Part shown: positions 11,317 to 33,547 of the stretch, in pieces
Layout of the letters: every line of letters starts with the position of its first letter
Position numbering within the stretch: position 1 is the first letter of the stretch
From: Betaproteobacteria bacterium
Lineage (GTDB): Bacteria; Pseudomonadota; Gammaproteobacteria; Burkholderiales; Usitatibacteraceae
Direction of reading: 5' to 3'
Assembly (NCBI GenBank): GCA_016790625.1
Contig: JAEUNB010000379.1
Location: 1-33,547, forward strand
Length of the DNA: 33,547 bases
The notes under the pieces: model-generated
Database searches by the model: none
What the model was told of the DNA's origin: nothing
What the model saw: only the letters and a program-made list of their open reading frames with translations
Program-made: the position numbers and the translations under genes

Positions 11317-12639
11317 TTGGAAGCAGAAAATCGACCCGATCATTCCGGCGAGGCGCCGGCCGCTCATGCGGACCAGCCCGCGGCCACACACGACATGACG
11401 GCGAATCCGTCCGGCGAGAACCTGCCTGTCACCGGCAACCCGACTGCGGTTTCAACCGCACCGGCGGACACCGCAGTTGCCGCGCCGGAAGTTCAGCACA
11501 TTAGGCCGCATCAATTCGCCTCGCCACCGGTCTGGACCGAGCCGCCCAGGAAACGCTCGCGGTTCAACTGGATATTTCTTATCACGGTCGTGATTCCCAC
11601 CACGATTGCGACCCTCTATTACGGCCTGATTGCATCGGACATCTATATCTCGGAATCGAGATTCGTCGTGCGCAGCCCGCAGAGGCAAGTTCAGACCGGA
11701 CTCGCCGCGCTGCTGCAAGGTACCGGCTTTTCCCGCTCGCAGGACGACACTTATTCGGTGCATGACTTCGTGCTCTCTCGCGACGCGCTTACCGAGCTGG
11801 ACAAAAAGCTCGGCGTGCGAAAAGCCTACACCAGCCAGGACAACGATTTCATCAACCGTTTTCCGGGCCTCGACTGGGACGACAGCTTCGAGGCGTTTCA
11901 CCGTTACTACAAGAAACAGGTGTCGATCGACTACGACACGGCATCTTCAATCACCACCCTGAAGGTGCGCGCCTTCAGTGCGGAGACATCGAAAAATGTA
12001 AACGACCTGCTGCTGCAAATGGGGGAGCGGCTGGTCAACAACCTCAATGATCGCAGCCGTCAGGACCTGATCAAGACCGCCGAACAGGAAGTGCAAATTG
12101 CGGAGGAGAAAATCAAGAACGCCGCCACTGCGCTGGCCGGCTTCCGCAACACGCAAACCGTATTCGACCCCGAACGCCAATCCGCGCTGCAACTGCAGGG
12201 TGTGGCAAAGCTGCAGGAAGAATTACTGACAACGCAAGCGCAGCTGGATCAGGTGCGGAAGGTCTCGCCGAACAATCCGCAAATCGCGTCGCTCAACAGC
12301 CGCGTGGAAAATCTGAAGAATGCCATTGCCAACGAGACGGCCAAGGTTGCCGGCTCAAGCGGCTCGCTCACCTCGAAATCCGCTGCCTACGAGCGCTTCG
12401 CACTGGACAAAATATTTGCCGAAAAACAGCTCGCCGCAGCACTTACTTCCCTGGAAACGGCGCGCAGCGAAGCACAACGCAAGCAGCTGTATCTGGAACG
12501 CCTGGTGCAACCGAACTTGCCGGATAAGGCTACCGAGCCACGCCGCATCCGCGGCATCCTCATGGTGTTTCTTCTCGGCATGGTGAGCTGGGGTGTGCTC
12601 ACGTTGCTTGTCGCCAGTGTCAGGGAGCATGTGGACTAA
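11317..12639 (+). CDS. kpsE: Capsule export inner-membrane protein, KpsE/CtrB family
   Basis: A 440-residue polysaccharide co-polymerase-like protein that, in group 2-type capsule systems, links the KpsMT exporter to the periplasm and outer membrane. A long proline/alanine-rich cytoplasmic N-terminus (about 1-80) precedes transmembrane helix 1 (84-104). The family motif YISESRFVVRSP lies just after it. A periplasmic coiled coil spans about 255-345, and a second helix lies at about 412-432 near the C-terminus. The start used is TTG with AGGAA six nt upstream; an ATG 26 codons later has no ribosome site. It begins 15 bp after manC, and its stop overlaps the kpsM start by one base. The cytoplasmic extension is longer than I expect for KpsE. 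Confidence 0.93.
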   Translation: MEAENRPDHSGEAPAAHADQPAATHDMTANPSGENLPVTGNPTAVSTAPADTAVAAPEVQHIRPHQFASPPVWTEPPRKRSRFNWIFLITVVIPTTIATLYYGLIASDIYISESRFVVRSPQRQVQTGLAALLQGTGFSRSQDDTYSVHDFVLSRDALTELDKKLGVRKAYTSQDNDFINRFPGLDWDDSFEAFHRYYKKQVSIDYDTASSITTLKVRAFSAETSKNVNDLLLQMGERLVNNLNDRSRQDLIKTAEQEVQIAEEKIKNAATALAGFRNTQTVFDPERQSALQLQGVAKLQEELLTTQAQLDQVRKVSPNNPQIASLNSRVENLKNAIANETAKVAGSSGSLTSKSAAYERFALDKIFAEKQLAAALTSLETARSEAQRKQLYLERLVQPNLPDKATEPRRIRGILMVFLLGMVSWGVLTLLVASVREHVD

Positions 12640-13445
12640 TGAGTCTGCTGCGCTCTCCGGAGATTGTCGCTTTCCGGCGCTCATTGGCAGTTCAGCGCCG
12701 GGTGATCGGCGCACTGCTGATGCGGGAGGTCATCACGCGATTCGGGCGGGACAATTTCGGCGCAATGTGGCTGGTTTTCGAGCCCATGCTCTTCACGCTG
12801 GGAGTAGCGGCACTGTGGACGGCCGCCGCCATGAACCACGGATCGAGCATTCCCATTGTTGCCTTTGCGGTGACAGGTTATTCATCGGTATTGCTGTGGC
12901 GCAACTGTGCAAGCCGCTGCTCAATGGCCATCGAAGCCAACCTCAGCCTTATGTATCACCGCAATGTGCAAGCGATCGATGTATTTTTCACGCGCATTCT
13001 GCTGGAAATCGCTGGTGCAACCGCGTCGTTCATCATCCTTTCAGTCATCTTCATCGTCATCGACTGGATGACGTTTCCCGTTGATCTCGGTAAGGTGCTG
13101 GGCGGATGGCTGCTGCTAGCTTGGTTTGGCGCATCGCTGGCACTGCTGATCGGCGCAGGTACTGCTTACAGCCACGTGGTCGAGAAACTTTGGCACCCGG
13201 CGGCGTACCTGCTGTTCCCGATGTCCGGGGCGGCGTTCATGGTTGACTGGTTGCCGGACACGCTGCAACAGGTCGTTCTGCTATTGCCGATGGTGCACGG
13301 CGTGGAACTGCTGCGTGAGGGCTGGTTTGGCAATACCGTTCGTACCCACTATGACGCCGGCTACATGGCCACCTGCTGCCTCATCCTGACCTGGCTGGGC
13401 ATGCACTACGTACGCGAGGCGGGACGCAAGCTGGAGTCGCGATGA
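12639..13445 (+). CDS. kpsM: Capsule ABC transporter permease, KpsM/CtrC family
   Basis: A 268-residue ABC-2-type permease that moves lipid-linked capsular polysaccharide across the inner membrane. It has the family-typical N-terminus REVITRFGRDNFGAMWLVFEP followed by about six hydrophobic helices. It has no ATPase domain of its own and pairs with the ATPase encoded immediately downstream, with a 4-base ATGA overlap. Length matches KpsM/BexB/CtrC. The overlap with kpsE at TAATG supports the start. Confidence 0.95.
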   Translation: MSLLRSPEIVAFRRSLAVQRRVIGALLMREVITRFGRDNFGAMWLVFEPMLFTLGVAALWTAAAMNHGSSIPIVAFAVTGYSSVLLWRNCASRCSMAIEANLSLMYHRNVQAIDVFFTRILLEIAGATASFIILSVIFIVIDWMTFPVDLGKVLGGWLLLAWFGASLALLIGAGTAYSHVVEKLWHPAAYLLFPMSGAAFMVDWLPDTLQQVVLLLPMVHGVELLREGWFGNTVRTHYDAGYMATCCLILTWLGMHYVREAGRKLESR

Positions 13446-14125
13446 TTTCGCTCGAAAACATCGTCAAGGAGTACCACACCCGTCTTGGCCCGCGCAGAGT
13501 GCTCGACAATGTCAGTTTCCAGCTGGAGCGTGGCCGCAATATCGGAATTCTTGGCTGCAACGGTGCCGGCAAATCGACGCTGATCCGTCTCCTCAGCGGT
13601 GCCGAGCGACCAACTTCCGGGCGTATTCGCCGCGAGATGTCGGTATCGTGGCCGCTGGCATTTGGCGGCGCGTTCCAGACCCACCTGACCGGCCTCGACA
13701 ACCTCAAGTTCGTCTGCCGCGTTTATGGCGTCGATTACAAGCCGCTGGTGCCGTTTGTCGAGGAATTCACCGAGCTTGGCGTCTATTTTCGCGAGCCGGT
13801 GATGCACTACTCGCATGGCATGCTGACGCGGCTTGCGTTCGCCCTGTCGATAGCGATCGAATTCGATTGTTTTTTAATTGATGAGGCCATGGTAGTCGGC
13901 GACGTAAGATTTCACGAGCGCTGTCATGTCGAAATGTTCCACAAGCGCAAGGATCGCGCTTTCATCCTCGTGAGCCATGATGCCAATGTCATAAAGCTAT
14001 ATTGCGAACGCGCATCGGTCCTGCACGAAGGCAGGCTCTATCATTTCGACAATGTCGATGCTGCCTACGATTTCTATATGGACGAGCTCGGCATGCGCCA
14101 TGCCAAGAGAGTTATCGAAGTCTAA
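13442..14125 (+). CDS. kpsT: Capsule ABC transporter ATPase, KpsT/CtrD family
   Basis: A 227-residue ATPase that powers capsule export with KpsM. Walker A GCNGAGKST is at 38-46 and Walker B CFLIDE at 143-148, with the switch histidine in LVSHD (179). The signature loop is the degenerate YSHGMLTRLAFAL, as in KpsT (which has a YSxGM form), not LSGGQ. It ends shortly after the nucleotide-binding domain and so lacks the C-terminal glycan-binding domain of Wzt exporters. This favours capsule-type transport over terminus-recognising O-antigen transport. GGAG with 5-nt spacing precedes the ATG, inside kpsM. Confidence 0.95.
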   Translation: MISLENIVKEYHTRLGPRRVLDNVSFQLERGRNIGILGCNGAGKSTLIRLLSGAERPTSGRIRREMSVSWPLAFGGAFQTHLTGLDNLKFVCRVYGVDYKPLVPFVEEFTELGVYFREPVMHYSHGMLTRLAFALSIAIEFDCFLIDEAMVVGDVRFHERCHVEMFHKRKDRAFILVSHDANVIKLYCERASVLHEGRLYHFDNVDAAYDFYMDELGMRHAKRVIEV

Positions 14126-16420: not shown

Positions 16421-17770
16421 TTAGACGCGATCGTGTTGTCTCGGCAAATAGCCAAGCAAATTGGCATTTGTCGCCAATGACGTCCTGGACGCAACGAACA
16501 CTGCTCGAGTAAGCCCCACTGCGTTGGTCGCAGGCGCATCGGGCCAGACAAGAGGAAACTCTTCGTGAGCAGGCTGGGTGCGAGTCGCATAAACATGACC
16601 AAACAACGCGGAGAGCTTGTTCCAAACCCATTGCCTTGTGGGCCGACAGCCAGTGCCATGAAACGCTTGCGTGACATCGTCGCGAGACTCCGGCACCGGA
16701 TTCACGTTGACCCCATCACCGCAAGTAACACAAGTCTCCAGCACAAGGATGCCTTGGCAGTGGTCAGCCAGATAGGAGAGAACCCGTCCGGGATCAGTAA
16801 CGTGATAGAGAAGGCCATAACAATGAATCAAATCGAAGCGGCGGCTTAGCGATTCGGGCCGCTCCATATCCAGTACCTGTGTCGTGACACGCGCATCTTC
16901 GCAAAAGCGGCGCCGAAGGTAGTCCACATTCTCCGGCCGTGCATCGGTACTCAAGACATGGCAGTCGCGGTCCAAATAGAAACTGGTGTGATCGCCAATG
17001 CCAGCACCTACTTCCAGCACTTCGCGGTCGTACAGCGGGAGTCCCAACGACGACAAGTGCTCCAGCCGGCGTTGGTTATGCCGTAAATAGTGTTCGGAGT
17101 GAAAACTAGCCGCAACATCTACAGCCTTGGCCCTCTTGAACAACACATCATCATGTCCGCTGGACGGTTGCCATTGCGGCACGAATCCGGCTCGGTCCAG
17201 CCATTGGCACAGCTCATGCCAGCGCGCACCACCCTTATAAACCTCGACCAGACTGACTTCGCAAAAAATGGCAGCGCAGCTGGCCAAGGCGTCACCTGCC
17301 CCCTGCAAAGCAAGCAACTCGGCCCCCTGCAGATCCAGCACCCAAAAGTCGTACCCCGCGTGATCGACCCCGCTTCGATGTAACAGCGTATCGAGTCGAA
17401 TCGTCGGCAGGGTCAGTTTTGCCACCATAGCCAGCCCCAGTTCGGGCCACAGCGAATTCCTGCCGACGGCATGGTCCCCGAAGGCAAACAACGAGGACGA
17501 CACGCCTTCACCATTATTCGAGATGTGAAACTCACACAACTTGTTGTCACTGGAACTCAACAGGCCGCAAAGCCCCAGCTGCCGGGGGAAGGTACGCAGA
17601 CGCTCAACAAGCCTCGAGTGAATGTGCGGCAATGCCTCCACCCAAACCACCGGCTTTCCCTCAGCAGCATATATTTCGGCCTCATGGCCGAGATGCGCTC
17701 CCAGGTGCAGAACACCTCGGGCACTGGCAAGGCAGCTTTGATACTGCTTTTTGCGTTGTTCGGCGGTCAT
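16421..17770 (-). CDS. Fused FkbM + class I methyltransferase
   Basis: A 449-residue protein with two methyltransferase domains. Residues about 15-215 are FkbM-like: GVLHLGAHLGHEAEIYA as motif I, VWVEALP, and YDFWVLDLQGAELLALQGA in place of the usual 'kiDvEGaE-vLkGa'. Residues about 218-440 are a second SAM Rossmann domain: EVLEVGAGIGDHTSFYL at 250-266, STDARPENVDYLRRRF, and FDLIHCYGLLYHV. The ATG at 17770 is preferred to a TTG one codon upstream; no strong ribosome site is seen. It follows fcl by 42 bp and is the last gene of the minus-strand unit. Two methylations of one glycan, or one active and one regulatory domain, are both possible. Confidence 0.88.
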   Translation of the reverse strand: MTAEQRKKQYQSCLASARGVLHLGAHLGHEAEIYAAEGKPVVWVEALPHIHSRLVERLRTFPRQLGLCGLLSSSDNKLCEFHISNNGEGVSSSLFAFGDHAVGRNSLWPELGLAMVAKLTLPTIRLDTLLHRSGVDHAGYDFWVLDLQGAELLALQGAGDALASCAAIFCEVSLVEVYKGGARWHELCQWLDRAGFVPQWQPSSGHDDVLFKRAKAVDVAASFHSEHYLRHNQRRLEHLSSLGLPLYDREVLEVGAGIGDHTSFYLDRDCHVLSTDARPENVDYLRRRFCEDARVTTQVLDMERPESLSRRFDLIHCYGLLYHVTDPGRVLSYLADHCQGILVLETCVTCGDGVNVNPVPESRDDVTQAFHGTGCRPTRQWVWNKLSALFGHVYATRTQPAHEEFPLVWPDAPATNAVGLTRAVFVASRTSLATNANLLGYLPRQHDRV

Positions 17771-17812
17771 CAAGATGGCGAGCGTCTATCCACGTCTCGC
17801 CGCATCGAGTCG

Positions 17813-20012: not shown

Positions 20013-22715
20013 TCATTCAACACGATTGCGCACCTCGATATCGTCCAGCCACGTTACAGCTTCTCCCGACCCATTCGAAACAAACCCGAGCCACTCGAGC
20101 GCAGTCCATTTGGCGTCGCGAAGAGGTAACGAATAGCTGCGCGCCGGTACACCTTCCTCTTCCACGGACAAAATCCATTGCCGGCCCGGCGCGTCACCCA
20201 GTGGCGCTGTCACGCTAAACACAATCCACTTTCCCGAAGGCACCGGCCCGAGGTCGCGGCCTCCAGCCGCCAGTTTGCCTGCCCGCACGGTGAACGATGG
20301 CCCTACTTTGTATGGCGTCGAAGCATCGCGCCACTCATGGTAGAAATTTCCTTGCACATCGAATGACGCTGCAAACCGAACGGTGGTAATGCCATTGCGA
20401 TGTTGCGGCCGGTAGTAGAAGAAGGGATCGTGATCATGCTTCAGGCCACCGACGTCAGTAACCTTAAGCGCTTGCGCTCCTGAATGGGCATTTTCGCGAC
20501 TGACTGCAATTGCATCTCCGCGCCCCTCGACGGAAACAACTGCAAAAGCCGGCTTGGTACCCTCGCGCTGAACTTCGAAACCCTCGACCAATTCCATGGC
20601 CGGCGGTGGTGGTTCCGGCACCGGTGTCCAGCTCTCCACGCGACTCCTTGATGTGCGTGGCGGGCCAGCATTGCGCGCGGCAGCATTCGCCTTGGCGATC
20701 TCGCCGAACCCCCTCTTTTTCGCCAGCGAAGCCTGCAGCACCCGGAAGTCGCCATTGGCCGGGCCGCGGAAGCCGGGGTCGGCCACGACAGATTGCTGAT
20801 CCTTGCCCGTCTCCTGCCACGCGGCAAACGACCGTCCCGCCCAGTCGATGGGGCGTTCACGCACGTCGAAGTAGATGTTGCGATCCATCACTACATTGCT
20901 GTCCGTCCATGTCCCACGCAGCATGGGCGCACCGTCGGTCACGACAATGTTGTCCTGAAACACAAACGAAACGTGATTCTCGGCCCGGGTCCGCTCCAGC
21001 TGCGCGTCCCGGCCCAAGGCAAACACGTTGTGGCGAATGAGATTGTCCCGGCCATAGTGTTGATGAAAGCCGCCCGAGTTGGTGCGATAAACGAGATTGT
21101 CCTCAAACAGCACTTGCGACGTTCCTTCATCCGCGTACAGGCCCCAGCCGCCACGTCCGTACTGGTCGTATGACATCACATCGTGAATCACATTGCCGCG
21201 AATTACTGTTCCCGGCGAAACGCCAAGTAAATAGATGCCCCCCATATCGCTGAGCCCGCCCTGACCGATGTGGTGGACATAATTGCCCTGAATCAGGTTG
21301 CCGGTCGCGACACTTTTGCCATACCCCCAGGTCCAGCCGACGCTGATACCGGTGTAATGGAAGTCGGTGATTTCGTTGCCTACCAGTCGGTTGTTGCCGG
21401 CGTGGCCAATCAGGACACCGACCGCGCCCGGATTCTCGCGGCCGCCGGCTTGAATCAGGTTACGCTCCACCGAGATGCCATCCGTCGAATTCTCGACCCC
21501 GGGCGCGTTGGTCGTCTCGCCGATTCGCACGCCACCGGCGCCAAGGTCCTCCAGCACAGACCCTGTGATTCGAGATGCATGCACGCCTCGTCTGAACCAG
21601 ACTCCATAGGCGCCGGTCTTGCTGATGCGCAGCCCTTCGAGCGCAATGCCTGAAGAATTTTCCACAATGATGGCTGCCGACGATTCAGCGGCAGCTTGCT
21701 GGCCCGCCGAACCGGCCGCGCCAAGCGGCTCCCCGGCATATTCGAATCGCAGGTTGCGGAGCGTTACATTTTTCGCGCCCTGGATGACCAGCCATTTGCC
21801 GACGACCGGCGCTACCACGTCGGCGTGCCGCATGTCTTCGCCAAGGCGCGGGAAGTAGTACAACCAGCCATCACGAGCAAGAAACCATTCGCCCGGCTCA
21901 TCGACCGCCGCAAGGTAATTGCCGATCTGGTAGCGCTGGTTGGGGCCGAAGTGAAAAAACGGCCATTGCGATTCAGTGCGCAGAAAGGCGATACCTGATG
22001 TTCGGTCAAATGATGAAACCCGATGGCGGGAAACAGACCACGAGTGCCAGGCAGTAATCTCGACGTCCTCAAGCTCCCCGGCCGGCATGCGATCGATTTG
22101 CTTCACTTCAGTCGCCGACATGCGAAACGCCTGGCGTGAAAAATCGCGCGGCGCAGACGACTGGGGGTCTTTCGCGTAGCCTACCGGCCCCGCCATATAG
22201 AGCCATCCGGCGTTCGGTGTTCGCGCGCGCTGCGCGCGCTTGCCGTTCACCCACAGTTGCTCGAAACGGAAATCCACTTTTGCACGCCAGATTCCACGCT
22301 CAAATTCTTGAAATCCGGAAATGCTGCGCCCGCCTAAGATGGTCGGGGCCGATTGGGGGTCAGCGCCAAGCATGGTCAAGCCTGAGTTACTTGCTGAAAT
22401 GACAATCCCATCTTTCAGCCGATAAGTGCCAGGCAAAAGCCTCAATTCACCCTGTGGGCACTGTTTGATCGCTACGGCGATGCTCGCAAAGGGCGCAACC
22501 CGTGTCCCGGAATCTGCATCGTTGCCAGTCGGCGATACCCATGCCAGACAGGAAGTCAGCGCGCAAGCGGGAAAAGAGGGTGCAGACAGAAGGATCGCTC
22601 TGCCTAACTGTTTACACAAGTCAAAAAAATCTGGTCGCGAGGTAATCGCGCTTGCCACAAATGAAGAAGGGGCTCGCGACTCCACCTTCCATTCATGTCG
22701 CGCTAAAGGCCGCAC
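20013..22715 (-). CDS. Exported parallel beta-helix protein, possible glycoside hydrolase
   Basis: A large (up to 900 residues) protein of the right-handed parallel beta-helix class. It opens with WVSPTGNDADSGTRVAPFAS near residue 59, the DUF1565-like start common in secreted beta-helix enzymes. Next come 'QLWVNGKRAQRARTPN' and many helix coils (about 300-600) such as NRLVGNEI, IQGNYVHHIG and VIRGNVIHDV. A beta-sandwich C-terminus (about 690-900) could bind carbohydrate. The architecture recalls GH141-like enzymes, some of which are alpha-L-fucosidases; that is a recollection, not a search result. The N-terminus is uncertain: the GTG at 22715 overlaps the upstream gene by 13 nt. A hydrophobic stretch with possible lipobox LTSC (Cys56) suggests a signal peptide that would fit better with a later start near residue 33 (TTG). 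Confidence 0.82.
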   Translation of the reverse strand: MRPLARHEWKVESRAPSSFVASAITSRPDFFDLCKQLGRAILLSAPSFPACALTSCLAWVSPTGNDADSGTRVAPFASIAVAIKQCPQGELRLLPGTYRLKDGIVISASNSGLTMLGADPQSAPTILGGRSISGFQEFERGIWRAKVDFRFEQLWVNGKRAQRARTPNAGWLYMAGPVGYAKDPQSSAPRDFSRQAFRMSATEVKQIDRMPAGELEDVEITAWHSWSVSRHRVSSFDRTSGIAFLRTESQWPFFHFGPNQRYQIGNYLAAVDEPGEWFLARDGWLYYFPRLGEDMRHADVVAPVVGKWLVIQGAKNVTLRNLRFEYAGEPLGAAGSAGQQAAAESSAAIIVENSSGIALEGLRISKTGAYGVWFRRGVHASRITGSVLEDLGAGGVRIGETTNAPGVENSTDGISVERNLIQAGGRENPGAVGVLIGHAGNNRLVGNEITDFHYTGISVGWTWGYGKSVATGNLIQGNYVHHIGQGGLSDMGGIYLLGVSPGTVIRGNVIHDVMSYDQYGRGGWGLYADEGTSQVLFEDNLVYRTNSGGFHQHYGRDNLIRHNVFALGRDAQLERTRAENHVSFVFQDNIVVTDGAPMLRGTWTDSNVVMDRNIYFDVRERPIDWAGRSFAAWQETGKDQQSVVADPGFRGPANGDFRVLQASLAKKRGFGEIAKANAAARNAGPPRTSRSRVESWTPVPEPPPPAMELVEGFEVQREGTKPAFAVVSVEGRGDAIAVSRENAHSGAQALKVTDVGGLKHDHDPFFYYRPQHRNGITTVRFAASFDVQGNFYHEWRDASTPYKVGPSFTVRAGKLAAGGRDLGPVPSGKWIVFSVTAPLGDAPGRQWILSVEEEGVPARSYSLPLRDAKWTALEWLGFVSNGSGEAVTWLDDIEVRNRVE

Positions 22716-24463
22716 CGAATCAGTACCCGCCGCGACGGCGCAACCGGCCGATCATACTCAACCACCTCTACTCTCGAGAAGAATTTTCGTAGCGACTTCA
22801 GGAAAGACTCCAGTGAGTACCCGGAAGGCAATGGACTGGGATAGTCGGCCTGAATATCCGCTGTCCCACCGAGCCCGTTCGGCATGAACTCGGTTATCAA
22901 TTGACCACGTGTCATGGAGGCGAGCTTCCGACTAATGTCGTCAAAGGATAGCCCCTGTGACAAGAACAAGTGATGCGTGAGCGCCAAACAAAGGACCAAG
23001 TCAGCTTCATAGGGCGTTTCCATAAAACTTCCGTGCGCAACTGAAACAGGTATATCGGGATGCTCCCCTAAAAAGGAGTAAAGCTTGTTTATCGACGCAT
23101 CATCCGTGTCAACTGCTATGCCGGCCTTTCCGCTTCGAGCGCAAAGTATGGTGAACAATCCGTCATTGGCGCCAATGTCGATGAAGCTGGCTGCCTGCAT
23201 GTCATCGGCCAGCGAGGCAACCACTTTGAAACGGGTGTCAGGATGGGCAGGTGCATAGGCTCCGCTCCAAGCCATGCCCAATTCATCTGCCGTTCGATAG
23301 TTCGACCAAAAATTGGAAACGTTTCCTACCTTCATCTCGTCAAGACCACGCCGCAATTTGGCGACAACGATCGTAATAGCGCGACGGTCCCGGCAATCTC
23401 GTCCGGAGAATTCTCGCTGATCGAATGATGGTTTGTGTCCCGAAAGAGACAACACGTCGCCAGCGCTCAAGCCCTCTGGTTGCATTGCCATCAGTTTTCG
23501 CACCTGATCGCGCTTTTCAGGATCTCGATAAATTACTTCTAGCGGATAGTAGAAACATTGCAGGAACTGCATGAAGCCAAACCAATCGTGCGGCTCAGCG
23601 ATAGAGCCGATATCCACCCAGCGCGGGCGACCAGCCTGAAATATTGCGAAATTACCGTAGTGGCCATCGATTAGTGTGTGAGTTGCGCGCAAATTGAGCG
23701 TCAACAGAGTTTCGTTTATGGAGACCCACACACTAGCAGCGTCCTGAAGTGCTGCAATCGGATAGTTGTGTGCTGACACATACCAGGGCGCGCCTTTTGT
23801 TCTGGCAATCTTGCTGTGCTTAGCATGGTCAATTTCCAAGAATTCATGCTTTGGTATCAGCCCTCGTTTCTCAAGTTCAACATAAACTCCCGCGTTTATC
23901 AGTTCGTCAACCTTTCGTGCCGCGTCCCTCTTTATAGCCCGCAAGAAATATCCATTGCGGTGGAAAACGCTGCCCAATGGGTCTTGGCCAGTGCCGAGCC
24001 AAGTAAGAACCGGGGCGGATATGCATGCCTCTTTAACCATAACACCCAGTTTTCGGGTGTCAGCAGATAGCCCGAACTCAGCAGGCGCTGATGGATTCGA
24101 AATATCGAATTCGATGATGACTTGATGCGACTCAATGACGTGATGCGGGATTGCCAACTCATGCCAAGCCTCTTCGCGCACCATCCAAGTTCCAACGCGA
24201 CACCCGTTTATCCTAATCGTTACAAGCTGGTGTTCGATGGAATTCTTGGGGCGAAACGCCATGCAGCGCATCCGCAAAAGCAAGTCCTGCCCGCGGTAGT
24301 CATCGATCAAAAAGGAAATCTCGGCCTTTGCATCGACGGTCCATCGATGGGCTGGTTCCTGCTGTGCCCACCCAAATCCCAAGTAAGCCGCAACGCTATT
24401 TTCCGAGGAGAACAGGAGCGGCGAACCAAGTTTGTAGATCGCGACTTCGCGGCTAGGTGACAC
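22703..24463 (-). CDS. Beta-sandwich / kinase-like / methyltransferase protein
   Basis: A 586-residue multidomain protein. Residues about 1-150 look like a beta-sandwich (W-A-Q-Q-E ... RW ... VTIRINGCRV ... FGLSADTRKLGVMV). Residues about 165-345 contain a kinase-like signature: DGHYGN (D266, H268, N271) and then WVDIGS (D284), which are reminiscent of the catalytic and metal loops of sugar-kinase-type folds. Residues about 420-586 form a SAM domain with FIDIGANDGLFTIL at 427-440. Proteins of this layout are related, as far as I can tell, to NoeA-type methyltransferases. The start is GTG with AGGTAG about 9 nt upstream. It follows the Gmd-like gene by 19 bp, and its 3' end overlaps the beta-helix gene. 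Activity is not assignable without structure comparison. Confidence 0.8.
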   Translation of the reverse strand: MSPSREVAIYKLGSPLLFSSENSVAAYLGFGWAQQEPAHRWTVDAKAEISFLIDDYRGQDLLLRMRCMAFRPKNSIEHQLVTIRINGCRVGTWMVREEAWHELAIPHHVIESHQVIIEFDISNPSAPAEFGLSADTRKLGVMVKEACISAPVLTWLGTGQDPLGSVFHRNGYFLRAIKRDAARKVDELINAGVYVELEKRGLIPKHEFLEIDHAKHSKIARTKGAPWYVSAHNYPIAALQDAASVWVSINETLLTLNLRATHTLIDGHYGNFAIFQAGRPRWVDIGSIAEPHDWFGFMQFLQCFYYPLEVIYRDPEKRDQVRKLMAMQPEGLSAGDVLSLSGHKPSFDQREFSGRDCRDRRAITIVVAKLRRGLDEMKVGNVSNFWSNYRTADELGMAWSGAYAPAHPDTRFKVVASLADDMQAASFIDIGANDGLFTILCARSGKAGIAVDTDDASINKLYSFLGEHPDIPVSVAHGSFMETPYEADLVLCLALTHHLFLSQGLSFDDISRKLASMTRGQLITEFMPNGLGGTADIQADYPSPLPSGYSLESFLKSLRKFFSRVEVVEYDRPVAPSRRVLIRCGL

Positions 24464-28474: not shown

Positions 28475-29848
28475 TTATTGCGGTGCGCCCTGCAACACAT
28501 ACCAATCATCCCACTGCGCCTCTTGCCGCGCGTAGCCCCTCGACTCAAGAAGACGGCGAATCGGTTCGCGTGTTTCGGAGAAGTTATGCTCCACTGTAAT
28601 GCATTGAATGCGCCAGCGCTCGAAGGGAAAAGCCCTGAGGATCTCGTACTCGCTGCCTTCGGTATCCAGGCTTAGGTAGTCGATCTCACGCGGCGCGCGA
28701 AATGATGTAAGCAATTCGTCGAGCGATGTCGTCTGCATATGCAACACCTTGCCCAGACTACGGAACGCCTGACGCTTGGCTGCATGGGTATCGTTCCCAG
28801 CAAAGTCGACGATGCCGCCATATTCGTCCGCAAGGATAAATTCCACGTCGCGTCCACTTTCCGCCGCCACGCACGCATCAGAAACGTGGCAGCGCCGGTT
28901 GCGCCGCAGCTGGGCGAAGAAATCCGGGTGAGGCTCAGCACAGATGCCCCGCCAATCGTAGCGGCGTTCCAGCAGATAGGTATTGCTGAGCAGGACGCCG
29001 TCGGTTGCGCCGAACTCCACGAAGTAGCCGCCTCGCTTGAAACCGGTTTGCTCCAATACCCACAGGTCCTGTCCAAGCTGCGAGGTAGACGCTTCACGAT
29101 CATCCGCCGGATTGCCGCCTGATGTGTAAAGCTGCTTGCGTTGCGCGGCCAGCGCGAGGCCGCCGCGAAGCAGTTCGATCTCGGCTTCTAGCATGCGAAT
29201 CCTGGCATCGTTGTCCGCCGGGCGCTCCGACAGGCTCGCGGCCTTCGCCAGTGATTTTTCCATCAGCGCCGCAGCGTCGGGCAAGAGGCCGAGCTTTGTC
29301 ACTTCACGCACCGAGCGGGCATGGCCCATTAGTTCGGCAGATCCGCCTGCCGATGCGCCAACCGACACTGCCTGCTCGAAGTGGCGTACCGCGCGGGCGT
29401 CCTGTCGGCTCAACGCCGCGGCGCGACCGAGCGTGTTGTGTACGCCGGCCACCAACACCTGCGCAAGCAGATCGCGGCGGCAACCCCACTGAATGGCCAG
29501 CCGGGCGGACTTGAGCGCATTGTCGTTTTCACCAAGCTGCTGCTGCGCAGCCGCCACCAGCAACGCCAGCCGGTCGCGGTCGGGATGATACCGCAAACGA
29601 TCCAGATCACATTTCGCCAGCGCCTCCCATTCACCGAAGAACCACTGCGTCTTTGCCTGAGACAGCGCCGACGCGTCGTAACCTTCGATCACCGGTAGTA
29701 ATTCGGATTCGTCGGTTCGAGTTGCCGTAGCTGCATCCGCAACATCAGCGTCCAGTTCCTGCACCCTCCGCTTTGCGGCGGAGGTACCAGACTTTTTGCG
29801 GACGGCCGGCTTGCGTTTGGCCGTCTTGCTTTCAGAATGCTTTTTCAC
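28475..29848 (-). CDS. FkbM methyltransferase with basic tail and helical repeats
   Basis: A 457-residue protein. The GTG start gives a lysine/arginine-rich tail (about residues 2-30, KKHSESKTAKRK...), then TPR-like helical pairs (about 60-200). The C-terminal FkbM methyltransferase domain (about 258-455) has QLGQDLWVLEQTGFKRGGYF, VEFGATDG (motif I), AEPHPDFFAQL, YLSLDTEGSEYEILRAF and a final ITVEHNF strand. The start overlaps the previous gene's end by 17 nt; a TTG nine codons upstream is less likely. FkbM enzymes methylate sugar or polyketide hydroxyls. The tail and repeats suggest docking to DNA, membrane or protein partners; the glycan acceptor is unknown. Confidence 0.85.
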   Translation of the reverse strand: MKKHSESKTAKRKPAVRKKSGTSAAKRRVQELDADVADAATATRTDESELLPVIEGYDASALSQAKTQWFFGEWEALAKCDLDRLRYHPDRDRLALLVAAAQQQLGENDNALKSARLAIQWGCRRDLLAQVLVAGVHNTLGRAAALSRQDARAVRHFEQAVSVGASAGGSAELMGHARSVREVTKLGLLPDAAALMEKSLAKAASLSERPADNDARIRMLEAEIELLRGGLALAAQRKQLYTSGGNPADDREASTSQLGQDLWVLEQTGFKRGGYFVEFGATDGVLLSNTYLLERRYDWRGICAEPHPDFFAQLRRNRRCHVSDACVAAESGRDVEFILADEYGGIVDFAGNDTHAAKRQAFRSLGKVLHMQTTSLDELLTSFRAPREIDYLSLDTEGSEYEILRAFPFERWRIQCITVEHNFSETREPIRRLLESRGYARQEAQWDDWYVLQGAPQ

Positions 29849-31985
29849 GCAGGACCACGTCCTTAATGAGATCAATCTGCGCTTCCGCCTTTACCAGCTC
29901 CTCGTCTAGCAAGCGCTGGCGGTAATCGAGTTCGCTACGCTCGGCTTCCAGCTGCGAAATGCGCGCGTTGCGCGCCTCTGCCTCGCCCAGCAGCTTCTCG
30001 ATGTGCGCGAGCCGCTCACGCGACACACGTGCATGCTCGTCGTGGTCGCGCGAGATGCGTTGCAGGCGATCAGAAAGCTCCTGTATCCCGGCCAATTCGG
30101 TCTGCTGGGCGGCTATGCGGGCGAGCGCCTGCGCGTTTTCCTCGCGCAGTTGCTCGACTTGCGCCATGCGCTCAGCGGACAGCCGCGCGTGCTCGTCACT
30201 ATCCCTCGCAATCCGCTGCAAGTTCGCAGCAAGTTCTGCGGCATTCGCACGCTCTGCTTCGTACGCTGCGAGGCCGCGCGAGACCTCTGCCTCCAGCAAT
30301 GCGGCGGATGCAATCGCGGCCGCCTTTTCGGCCTGCAAAGCCTCGACCTGCGCCAGCCGGTGCGCAGCCAGGTTCATCTGTTGCAAACGCTCCTCGGCCA
30401 GCTTCGCGTTCGTGGTCTCGTGCGCCGTCAACAACTGACTCTGGCTGGAAAGCGCCGTATCCAACGCTAACTTGCTTTCCAGGATTTGCTGCGCATGCGC
30501 ATGCTCGCTCGCGAGTCGCGAGGCAATGCCATCGCGTTCCAACACCGCGCTGGCCAGCTCGGCCTGCAGCGCACTGATGCGCTGGGCCGTTTCTTCAAGC
30601 GATTGCTCGCGTTGCCCGAGCGCCTGACGCACCTGCTCCAGTTCAGCCGTAGTGATGGCGGCTGCCTTTGCGGCTTCTTCTTTCGCAGCCTGGATCGCCA
30701 ACAATTGCGCCTGGAGGGATTCGATTTGCGATTTCTGCGCGGCCTTGTCGATGGCCGCAGTCTCGACCGCGCGGGTAAGCTCATCCAGCCGTGCCTGGCG
30801 CTGCGTCGCCTGTTGTATCAACTCCTCGCAGGCGCGATTGAGTTGCGTGACCTGATCTGCACGTTGGATTGCAAGTTCGGTTTGTTCCTGCGCGCCGCGC
30901 GACAGTTCGTCGATGCGCCCCTGCTGCTCGGCGATGCGGTTTTCCAGCCGCGCCTGAATCTGGGCGGCTTGCGTCAGGGACGCCTTGCTCTCGGCCAGTT
31001 GCAAGGCCTGTAGAAGGGCTTCATCGTCATGCTCGCGCGTTTGCCGCTCAAGCTGAGCACGTAACGACGCGATGTCAGCTTCCAGCCCTGTTCTAGATCG
31101 GTTGAGTTCTGCGACTGAAGCGACGTAGGCAGCAATCCCCTGCTCCTGGTCACGGCTCAGTTGTACCAGCGCTTCGGTCCTGGCCTCGCTGATGGCCAAG
31201 CGCTCGCTCGCTTCGCTCAGCTTAGCCGTTGTCGAAGCAAGCATGGCCTCGGCTTCCGCCCGCGCAAGCTCGGACGCACTTTCACGCAACGGTGCGCCCT
31301 CGTCAGGAAGCGGCTTTACCGCCGGCTGCGTTCTGCTCCATTCACGCACATAGATCGCCGTGGCAATGGCGGGCATACGCTCTTCAACACGGGTAACCGA
31401 GCGAAACCCCAAACCACACAGGTAGTCGTCCACCTCAGCCGCGCCGGCGCCGGCGAGATTTGGCCCCCCTGCAAGCAACACCCGGGCAAGTACGACATCG
31501 CAATTGGCGAGGTGACCAGCGGCCCCCTGCAACACTGGAAGCGCCGGAAGACAATCAGCCACAAGCCAATTGAGCGTGTCCGCAGGCCAGTCTGCATCGG
31601 CCAACGTGGCGTCTATCGTCGTCATTGACAAAGTGCGCCGCTCGCGCGCGCGGAGGTTTCGCCAAAGAAACGATAGCGATTCGGGCTCAATCACGCTGCT
31701 TTCGTTGGGGTTGGTTGCAACATAAAACACTTGCTCACCCGACGCGGCGCCAACAAGTGCATTGCGCGCCATCCAGCCCTCACGCGGCCCGATCGAATCG
31801 GGCAGTTTTCGCGCCAATCCGGCATCGGCTTCCAACAGCATCAGGCGCGGCACACCCCACTGTGCGTAGCGGCTCGCCGCAAAGCCACTTCCAGCCCCGA
31901 CATGCACAACACTTTCAGCGGGGAACAGTACGCTGAGGTGATTCAACCAGCTCTGCAGTTCGGCGCTTGATTGTGTCAGTGTCAT
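29832..31985 (-). CDS. FkbM-like domain plus very long coiled coil
   Basis: A 717-residue protein. Residues about 1-210 look like a degenerate FkbM/SAM domain: SVVHVGAGSGFAASRYAQWG as motif I, LMLLEADAG, then TTIDATLAD and LNWLVADCLPALPVLQGA where FkbM proteins carry the 'D-x-E-G' acidic pair. The catalytic quality is doubtful because that acidic pair is missing. Residues about 225-700 are almost continuous heptad-like helix rich in Ala, Gln, Glu and Leu with few prolines or glycines, so a long coiled coil is predicted. The ATG at 31985 is preferred over a 26-codon upstream extension that overlaps the preceding gene. It could be a spacer, scaffold or chain-length ruler. Confidence 0.83.
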   Translation of the reverse strand: MTLTQSSAELQSWLNHLSVLFPAESVVHVGAGSGFAASRYAQWGVPRLMLLEADAGLARKLPDSIGPREGWMARNALVGAASGEQVFYVATNPNESSVIEPESLSFLWRNLRARERRTLSMTTIDATLADADWPADTLNWLVADCLPALPVLQGAAGHLANCDVVLARVLLAGGPNLAGAGAAEVDDYLCGLGFRSVTRVEERMPAIATAIYVREWSRTQPAVKPLPDEGAPLRESASELARAEAEAMLASTTAKLSEASERLAISEARTEALVQLSRDQEQGIAAYVASVAELNRSRTGLEADIASLRAQLERQTREHDDEALLQALQLAESKASLTQAAQIQARLENRIAEQQGRIDELSRGAQEQTELAIQRADQVTQLNRACEELIQQATQRQARLDELTRAVETAAIDKAAQKSQIESLQAQLLAIQAAKEEAAKAAAITTAELEQVRQALGQREQSLEETAQRISALQAELASAVLERDGIASRLASEHAHAQQILESKLALDTALSSQSQLLTAHETTNAKLAEERLQQMNLAAHRLAQVEALQAEKAAAIASAALLEAEVSRGLAAYEAERANAAELAANLQRIARDSDEHARLSAERMAQVEQLREENAQALARIAAQQTELAGIQELSDRLQRISRDHDEHARVSRERLAHIEKLLGEAEARNARISQLEAERSELDYRQRLLDEELVKAEAQIDLIKDVVLREKAF

Positions 31986-32004: not shown

Positions 32005-33547
32005 TCAGACAATCTGGTGCAATTCAATCGACCGCACGCGCACCGCGAGGACGCGCGAATCATCGGAGCCGTGCTCCACAGGCGAGATCAATCGCGGAAA
32101 CCGGAACTGAAACTCCCACTCACTTCCCGGAGGCACCTGCTCAGAGGAAAAACGTGAGCGCACGATCGCAACCACGCCTTCGCCATCAAAGGTCACGACG
32201 AGCGGCATACCGTTGATGCTCAGCTGCATGCCGTTGAGTATGTCCACGGCCTTGGCATCGACGATATCGATCGTCACGCCGTACTCTCCGGCTTTCAGGG
32301 CAGCAACGCGTAGCGTACTCAGCCGGTCCGGTCCGGCCCAGCGCCCGTCGTGCTCGGCGTAGTACCAGTTTTCGCCATCGATTTCGCCAGTAAGGTCGAT
32401 AAAGGCTTCGGTCTTTTGGTAAAGCGGGGTATACGCCTCTGATGAACGAGTCAGAGGTTGCTCCAGCCGGTCGAGCAGTTGCTGGTTCTCGGTCGTGTAG
32501 TGCATCAGTTCATCCTGCATCTGATGCAGTTGCAATAGCAGCAATTCGTTTTCTTCCGTCAGGCGTCCCATTTCAGCTTTCAGCGGCGCTAATTCTCCGT
32601 TTGCATCCGCAAGCTCGCCGCGTGTTTGCAGGACGACGGTTTCCAATTCACCTACTTTGGCTAAAAGCCCCGATTCACGCGCCAGCCATTCGGCGTCACG
32701 TATTTGCGCGGACGCATGCATCGCTGCTACTTGCTCGCGTAGCACACCGAGATCGGTCTCCTTAAGTGCGCACAGTTGACGGCTCTCGCCCAGCGCGCTG
32801 TCTGCCTCGGCTATTCGCCGGCCCAGATTGCGAAATTCTCGCCAAGCTGCGAGAGCTTCCGTGCTTTCTGCCGTCAGAAGGGCACCATCGAGATCCGCCG
32901 CACTATCGAGTTCCCGGAACAATTCTGCTGCGGCACTTGACTCACCGACGAGTGGCCGTGCGAGCGTTGCGCGCACAGCGCCCGCTTCGATGCCGGCGTC
33001 TGCCGCGAATCCGGCGGGCAGCTGCAAATCCAGCCCCAATTTCGGATTGATTGCCTCCAGGAATTTCGCAGGCGAGCACCGCGCTGCATCACTATTGATC
33101 AGCACGCATCGATCACTGTGCCGATGATAGAAACGCAGTAACTCGTCATTCTCCCGAGACCACTTCTTGAGGAAAGATTCGCATTGGCTTGCGGACATTT
33201 CACCGTCCGCCATTGCGATCCCGAGCGCGTGCTCAGGGGATGCAAAGGTCAGCACGAATCGAACTTGCGAATCGAACGCCGCCCAAAAATCCATGGTCCA
33301 CAGGTTGCGCGCGTCTGCCCAGCCCCATGCAGGAAAGGCGAGATTGGAGACAAACAGATCGGCCGCCAGTTCATGCCATAGCTTGCCTGGCGCCAATTGC
33401 GCGCCAACACTCTCACCATCGAGATCAAGTTCGTGCGCCGCAAACATCTCAGCAAGAAAGTCGGAAGGCGACAAGCCGCGCTGCCGTGATGGCCGGGGGT
33501 TCTCGATACCCGCGTGGCAAAGCAGTTGATGCATCTGGTGAAGGCCC
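32005..33547 (-). CDS. Sulfotransferase-like / coiled coil / beta-sandwich protein (5' end missing)
   Basis: The frame is open to the right edge of the window, so the true start lies outside; 509 residues follow the internal ATG at 33534. The visible N-terminal part resembles sulfotransferase-family proteins: WGWADARNLWTMDFW and VRFVLTFASPEHAL (compare 'GWKDPRtcltLpfW'), then a CVLINSD segment. The P-loop would be upstream, outside the window. A coiled coil covers about residues 215-365 and includes ENELLLLQLHQMQDELMHY, a segment I have seen in other glycan-transferase fusion proteins. The last 124 residues form a beta-sandwich with RWAGP, LSINGMPL and DDSRVLAVRVRSIEL, resembling the N-terminus of the 22703-24463 product. 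The true sulfotransferase activity is unproven. Confidence 0.8.
   Translation of the reverse strand, partial: GLHQMHQLLCHAGIENPRPSRQRGLSPSDFLAEMFAAHELDLDGESVGAQLAPGKLWHELAADLFVSNLAFPAWGWADARNLWTMDFWAAFDSQVRFVLTFASPEHALGIAMADGEMSASQCESFLKKWSRENDELLRFYHRHSDRCVLINSDAARCSPAKFLEAINPKLGLDLQLPAGFAADAGIEAGAVRATLARPLVGESSAAAELFRELDSAADLDGALLTAESTEALAAWREFRNLGRRIAEADSALGESRQLCALKETDLGVLREQVAAMHASAQIRDAEWLARESGLLAKVGELETVVLQTRGELADANGELAPLKAEMGRLTEENELLLLQLHQMQDELMHYTTENQQLLDRLEQPLTRSSEAYTPLYQKTEAFIDLTGEIDGENWYYAEHDGRWAGPDRLSTLRVAALKAGEYGVTIDIVDAKAVDILNGMQLSINGMPLVVTFDGEGVVAIVRSRFSSEQVPPGSEWEFQFRFPRLISPVEHGSDDSRVLAVRVRSIELHQIV

Follow-up and report, generated by a model that had tools for sequence, protein, structure and literature searches.

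A coiled-coil rod with a methyltransferase-fold head belongs to a conserved two-gene module for glycan assembly

The window, the whole stretch of 33,547 nucleotides analysed here, is an entire contig from the assembly (4.1 Mb, 88.6% complete) of a Betaproteobacteria bacterium placed in the class Gammaproteobacteria, to which Methylotuvimicrobium buryatense also belongs, and one of its genes (29832-31985) encodes a 717-residue protein, referred to here as the rod, in which a methyltransferase-fold head is joined to a very long coiled coil. We find that the rod is genuine and forms, with the product of the gene immediately upstream (32005-33534), a conserved two-gene module for glycan assembly; the protein encoded at 22703-24463 is not supported as its partner. 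A possible role for the rod is that of a spacer or ruler while the sugar chain is built. To our knowledge it is not known how Kps-type ABC-exported capsules reach a defined chain length, and we know of no terminator described for capsules exported by KpsMT. The Hib capsule is one example of a KpsMT-exported capsule without a known terminator (PMC11231755). A widespread gene pair in which rod length varies between conserved ends is a candidate for capsule length control, and the natural repeat-number variants present in harmless environmental bacteria make this candidate directly testable.

Both strands of the locus encode methyltransferases, glycosyltransferases and sugar-nucleotide enzymes, and the plus strand also encodes an exporter. 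The features relevant here are as follows.

11317..12639, plus strand: KpsE-type export protein (BexC/CtrB/KpsE family)
12639..13445, plus strand: KpsM-type ABC-2 permease
13442..14125, plus strand: KpsT-type ATPase, 227 aa, lacking a C-terminal carbohydrate-binding domain
28475..29875, minus strand: TPR-like helical N-terminus followed by an FkbM methyltransferase (Methyltransf_21); downstream of the rod gene and overlapping its stop
29832-31985, minus strand: rod, an open frame that starts with the ATG at 31985 and encodes 717 aa
31335..31985, minus strand: class I (FkbM-like) methyltransferase-fold head, aa 1-217 (structure model, motifs, homologue alignment)
29907..31289, minus strand: coiled coil, aa 233-693 (proline-free, hydrophobic period of 3.5 residues)
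29835..29906, minus strand: conserved C-terminal tag DEELVKAEAQIDLIKDVVLREKAF, aa 694-717 (homologue alignment)
32005..33534, minus strand: conserved partner, directly upstream of the rod, its 5′ end cut by the contig end
32461..32583, minus strand: segment ENELLLLQLHQMQDELMHY of the partner coil, carrying the motif QLHxVQEELE

The mechanical start of the rod reading frame is at 32063, and we prefer the ATG at 31985 because homologues align from that position. Searches of Pfam, NCBIfam and PHROGs with the protein return coiled-coil noise or one weak unnamed match, and for the head there is no match in Pfam; the window protein fails to reach the gathering cut-off of the FkbM family (PF05050), and some homologues score weakly, among them L012 with an E value of 2.6e-4 (score 21.6, cut-off 22.7). 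The structure model of the head is nonetheless confident, with pLDDT mostly about 90 and a few blocks near 80, and it matches both COMT (Z 15.5) and the FkbM methyltransferase 2py6 (Z 14.5, rmsd 2.6 Å over 165 aligned residues), other class I methyltransferases scoring equally well. The methyltransferase-like head recognised in the sequence-only reading is thus borne out as a class I fold. Fourteen aligned heads keep GAGxG, WL..DC.PA, E95, W108, R168 and P205, and the SAM motif, VGAGSG in the window, is conserved in nearly all homologues; however, where FkbM enzymes, including the one encoded at 28475-29875 of the window, have DxEGxE, the head has an invariant DCxPA. Because of this combination SAM binding by the head is likely whereas ordinary FkbM catalysis is uncertain. 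In one homologue (G392) the coil and the tag are kept but the SAM motif is gone, which rules out methylation as a general function.

The coil, proposed earlier to be about 475 residues long, is a genuine heptad coil of about 480 residues: hydrophobic periodicity at exactly 3.5 residues has a power of 19.8, compared to a maximum of 8.0 among 300 shuffles, and proline is absent from residue 233 to residue 717. The proposed span of roughly 70 nm also holds arithmetically, at 1.5 Å for each of the approximately 480 residues from the head end of the coil to the tag, if the helix is continuous. A nearly unbroken helix is not borne out: the AlphaFold2 model has two helices, at residues 254-456 (203 residues) and 494-713 (220 residues), with pLDDT below 50 at residues 457-493 (about 30507-30617) and mostly 50-70 in the rest of the coil, and there are local shifts of the heptad register. 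Residues 457-493 nevertheless show a heptad-like pattern of their own, so we do not regard the break, possibly an artefact of modelling, as proven.

Sampling of 369 genomes of the class yielded three further head homologues, and a scan of GTDB contigs with a profile built from a three-row head alignment yielded twelve loci. In E. coli there is a plasmid copy (pAL.H8), with DNA-level matches on 76 chromosomes. No head homologue was found in 27 other genomes of the family, which argues that the gene is accessory there, and no phage homologue of the head was found; FkbM matches without a coil on Azospirillum plasmid H2, and a candidate in G357, have different architectures and were set aside. The coil between the conserved ends varies from about 125 to 535 residues across the relatives, and a member truncated by a contig end has at least 123. 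This variation is well illustrated by three Comamonas proteins whose heads are 79-86% identical and whose coils are about 177, 361 and 533 residues. In several relatives the coil is encoded by a DNA tandem array, often of near-identical repeats corresponding to whole heptads; no such array was found in the rod coil of the window.

Methylotuvimicrobium buryatense 5G coil: 126 bp, 5.8 copies, without indels
Comamonas testosteroni JL40 coil (KpsMTE locus): 126 bp, 8.7 copies, without indels
G041 coil: 105 bp, 8.0 copies, without indels
Another array: 189 bp, 2.1 copies, without indels
Another array: 84 bp, 4.1 copies, with a few indels
Other arrays: 180 bp, 2.5 copies, and 96 bp, 3.2 copies, neither a whole number of heptads

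Members of the rod family end in one of two ways, with the tag KAEAQIxLIKDxxLRE or with a second methyltransferase. The tag is present in the rods of the window, Legionella, Methylotuvimicrobium, Azotobacter, Methylovulum and Methylococcaceae, and in degenerate form in Edaphobacter, with coils of about 128 to 480 residues; the second methyltransferase is found in E. coli, Oxalobacteraceae, Comamonas and Corticibacter, with coils of 155 to 533 residues. Searching with a tag profile shows that the tag also ends other coil proteins of glycan loci, in G041 and G392, and is carried by a sulfotransferase-like protein of G276. Its helical moment is low (0.24), and membrane insertion through the tag is not favoured as it is not strongly amphipathic. 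A Methylotuvimicrobium sulfotransferase-like protein (L039, 13101-14753) ends in a near-copy of the rod tag (RAEAQIELLKDLLI), which hints at a docking site in common with the rod.

The partner gene lies directly upstream of the rod in 15 further loci, including E. coli, Comamonas, Legionella, methanotrophs and others; the same partner family, with its QLHxVQEELE coil motif, precedes the rod in the E. coli and GTDB loci, in G315 and, in a degenerate form, in G392. The E. coli pair consists of a homologous head with a homologous partner immediately upstream, the latter labelled in RefSeq as a DUF8374-containing protein. The partner is laid out as a sulfotransferase-like head, a coil and a C-terminal beta-sandwich, the N-terminus of the window copy being missing at the contig end; these fold labels are tentative because the structural matches, to sulfotransferases and to carbohydrate-binding beta-sandwiches, are weak. 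Sequence distances between partners correlate with those between heads (r 0.52, 6 of 2000 permutations). The coil lengths of rod and partner do not correlate (rho 0.19, p 0.60, 10 loci), a link that had looked suggestive with eight loci having vanished with ten. In G041 the partner motif, a repeat coil and the tag occupy a single reading frame, and in G204 the motif is fused to an O-methyltransferase of the type that ends the E. coli rods; both fusions argue that the pieces of rod and partner act together.

How might such a pair function? The reading we prefer, which we regard as standing at about an even chance, is that the rod is the long spacer arm of a two-protein module with which the cell assembles, in the cytoplasm, a polysaccharide for export, in this locus a capsule that leaves through KpsE/M/T. 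The FkbM-like head would bind SAM at one end of the rod, perhaps to methylate the chain, and the C-terminal tag would dock at the other end to the assembly complex, with the partner encoded upstream, or a site beside it, as the likeliest target. As in the WbdD ruler, the coil would then fix how far the head stands from the docked tag, and gain or loss of repeat units could make the coil longer or shorter. The variation of coil length between conserved ends strengthens the spacer reading, and KpsE, KpsM and KpsT genes adjoin most of the rod-family loci. We also count in its favour the recurring gene pair with its correlated distances, the fusions in G041 and G204, the repeat-built coils, the coiled-coil protein that follows kpsE in E. 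coli K96, and the TnSeq result on kps-locus genes given below. We count against it the 180 and 96 bp repeat periods, the lack of an array in the window coil, the uncorrelated coil lengths of the partners, the lost SAM motif of G392, the failure to find KpsE in G276, G041 and G315, genomes that carry the module or its relatives, the possible polarity of the TnSeq insertions, and the fact that no chain terminator is known for KpsMT-exported capsules.

Several of these same observations would also fit a plain scaffold, with the pair of coiled-coil proteins keeping glycosyltransferases and modifying enzymes close to the exporter and with a coil that measures nothing, its length drifting neutrally by repeat slippage. 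Repeat periods that are not multiples of seven residues, the degenerate G392 head and the presence in E. coli K96 of a coiled-coil protein without a methyltransferase head, located after kpsE, all point this way; however, long coils are nearly proline-free in most homologues and the ends are sharply conserved, including the invariant DCxPA site, and while we consider a scaffold a real possibility we lean against it. An ordinary modifying methyltransferase, with the head methylating internal capsule sugars and the coil serving for oligomerisation alone, is improbable: the class I fold, the retained GAGxG motif and the other FkbM methyltransferases of the locus agree with it, but the loss of DxEGxE does not, and this reading gives no account of why the coil is so large and variable.

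A further alternative, raised in the sequence-only reading, is a split ruler of the WbdD type in which the 22703-24463 protein caps the chains and the rod sets the distance. WbdD of the O9a form has a kinase next to its methyltransferase, and the O8 form has no kinase; the WbdD rulers use Wzt-type carbohydrate recognition, with the C-terminal domain of Wzt reading the cap. In such O-antigen systems of Klebsiella and E. coli a coiled-coil ruler is part of the terminator (PMC3482155, PMC11231755). In the 22703-24463 product (minus strand) a beta-sandwich-like N-terminus is followed by a kinase-like central part (DGHYGNFAIF..RWVDIGSI) and then by a methyltransferase at the C-terminus. This product lacks a coil and has its domains in reverse order relative to WbdD; a full-length relative is present on the deltaproteobacterial plasmid CP026659. 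Its methyltransferase part is weakly similar to WbdD (E 0.06) and it is encoded in the same locus as the rod. However, its relatives occur in none of the rod-bearing loci, and among the 369 genomes those that have one (G088, G167, G202, G209, G316) include none with the rod or its partner, the window's own excepted. Moreover, the Wzt carbohydrate-binding domain (PF14524) has no match in the 88.6% complete assembly and is absent from the KpsT protein. The proposed pairing is thus not supported, a split ruler is highly improbable, and a termination-and-recognition cycle of the WbdD type is unsupported, in contrast to a spacer role.

The analogy with WbdD itself fares better, if incompletely. The rod, too, combines a methyltransferase fold with an extended coil, and resembles WbdD (E. 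coli O9a/Klebsiella O3) and the Klebsiella O4, O7 and O12 terminators in that a catalytic-fold domain, a methyltransferase in WbdD, ends a long coil, in its ABC-transporter-dependent glycan locus and in its conserved C-terminal end (PMC3482155, PMC11231755). In rulers of the WbdD type the C-terminus serves to recruit the polymerase or to associate with the membrane; at this position the rod has the conserved tag with its low helical moment. It differs in having no kinase domain, the head being one class I fold that runs straight into the coil; in that this head is FkbM-like and not of the WbdD type, a phmmer search of PDB, WbdD included, giving no WbdD match up to E 1; in that a neighbouring gene always codes for a second coiled-coil protein; in an exporter of the KpsMT type without a carbohydrate-binding domain; and in a coil about twice as long as everything C-terminal in WbdD from residue 460 to residue 708. 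Where the coil is encoded by tandem repeats, as in many relatives, the length of a ruler, and with it that of the capsule chains, could shift by whole units. That the methyltransferase-headed coil is a chain-length ruler for KpsMT-exported capsules, measuring the growing chain and changing by repeat units through recombination, nevertheless seems doubtful to us.

That putative methyltransferases in many group 3 capsule clusters of E. coli differ in the length of their coiled coils has already been published, with no function assigned, in a 2026 typing study that treats this variation as not expected to be critical (PMC13171606), and a SAM-dependent methyltransferase follows region 1 in these clusters (PMC10433991). 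By description and position these proteins probably correspond to the head and pair described here; the E. coli forms analysed here have short coils and end in a second O-methyltransferase, and the window form ends in the tag. We found no description of the rod and partner pair, the tag or the tandem-repeat coil in the open-access library searched. TnSeq has indicated that all but two kps-locus genes are needed for capsule, with polar effects possible (PMC13410964). KpsC and KpsS (PF05159) were not found in the source genome, making a beta-Kdo lipid linker doubtful here, with the caveat that the assembly is 88.6% complete.

Genes of the 28475-29875 type recur after the rod gene in a Methylococcaceae MAG, and the TPR part is also found in Legionella and Azotobacter; behind rod genes this part turns up joined to various C-terminal enzymes (a sulfotransferase in G041), as an exchangeable adaptor would. 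A repeated module, WYLxxYPDVxxxGxxPLxHYxxxGxxEGR, adjoins coils in three settings, the coil protein of K96, G041 and the G392 partner (L042, 21618-22631 and 22648-22788; L037, 10154-11821). Elsewhere in the window, 16421-17773 (minus strand) encodes a 450-residue fusion of two methyltransferase domains, FkbM and Methyltransf_12, and 20013-22715 (minus strand) a 900-residue right-handed beta-helix protein with matches to Beta_helix, GH141_M and, weakly, the pectate lyase PelN, possibly a polysaccharide lyase or hydrolase acting on the product of the locus.
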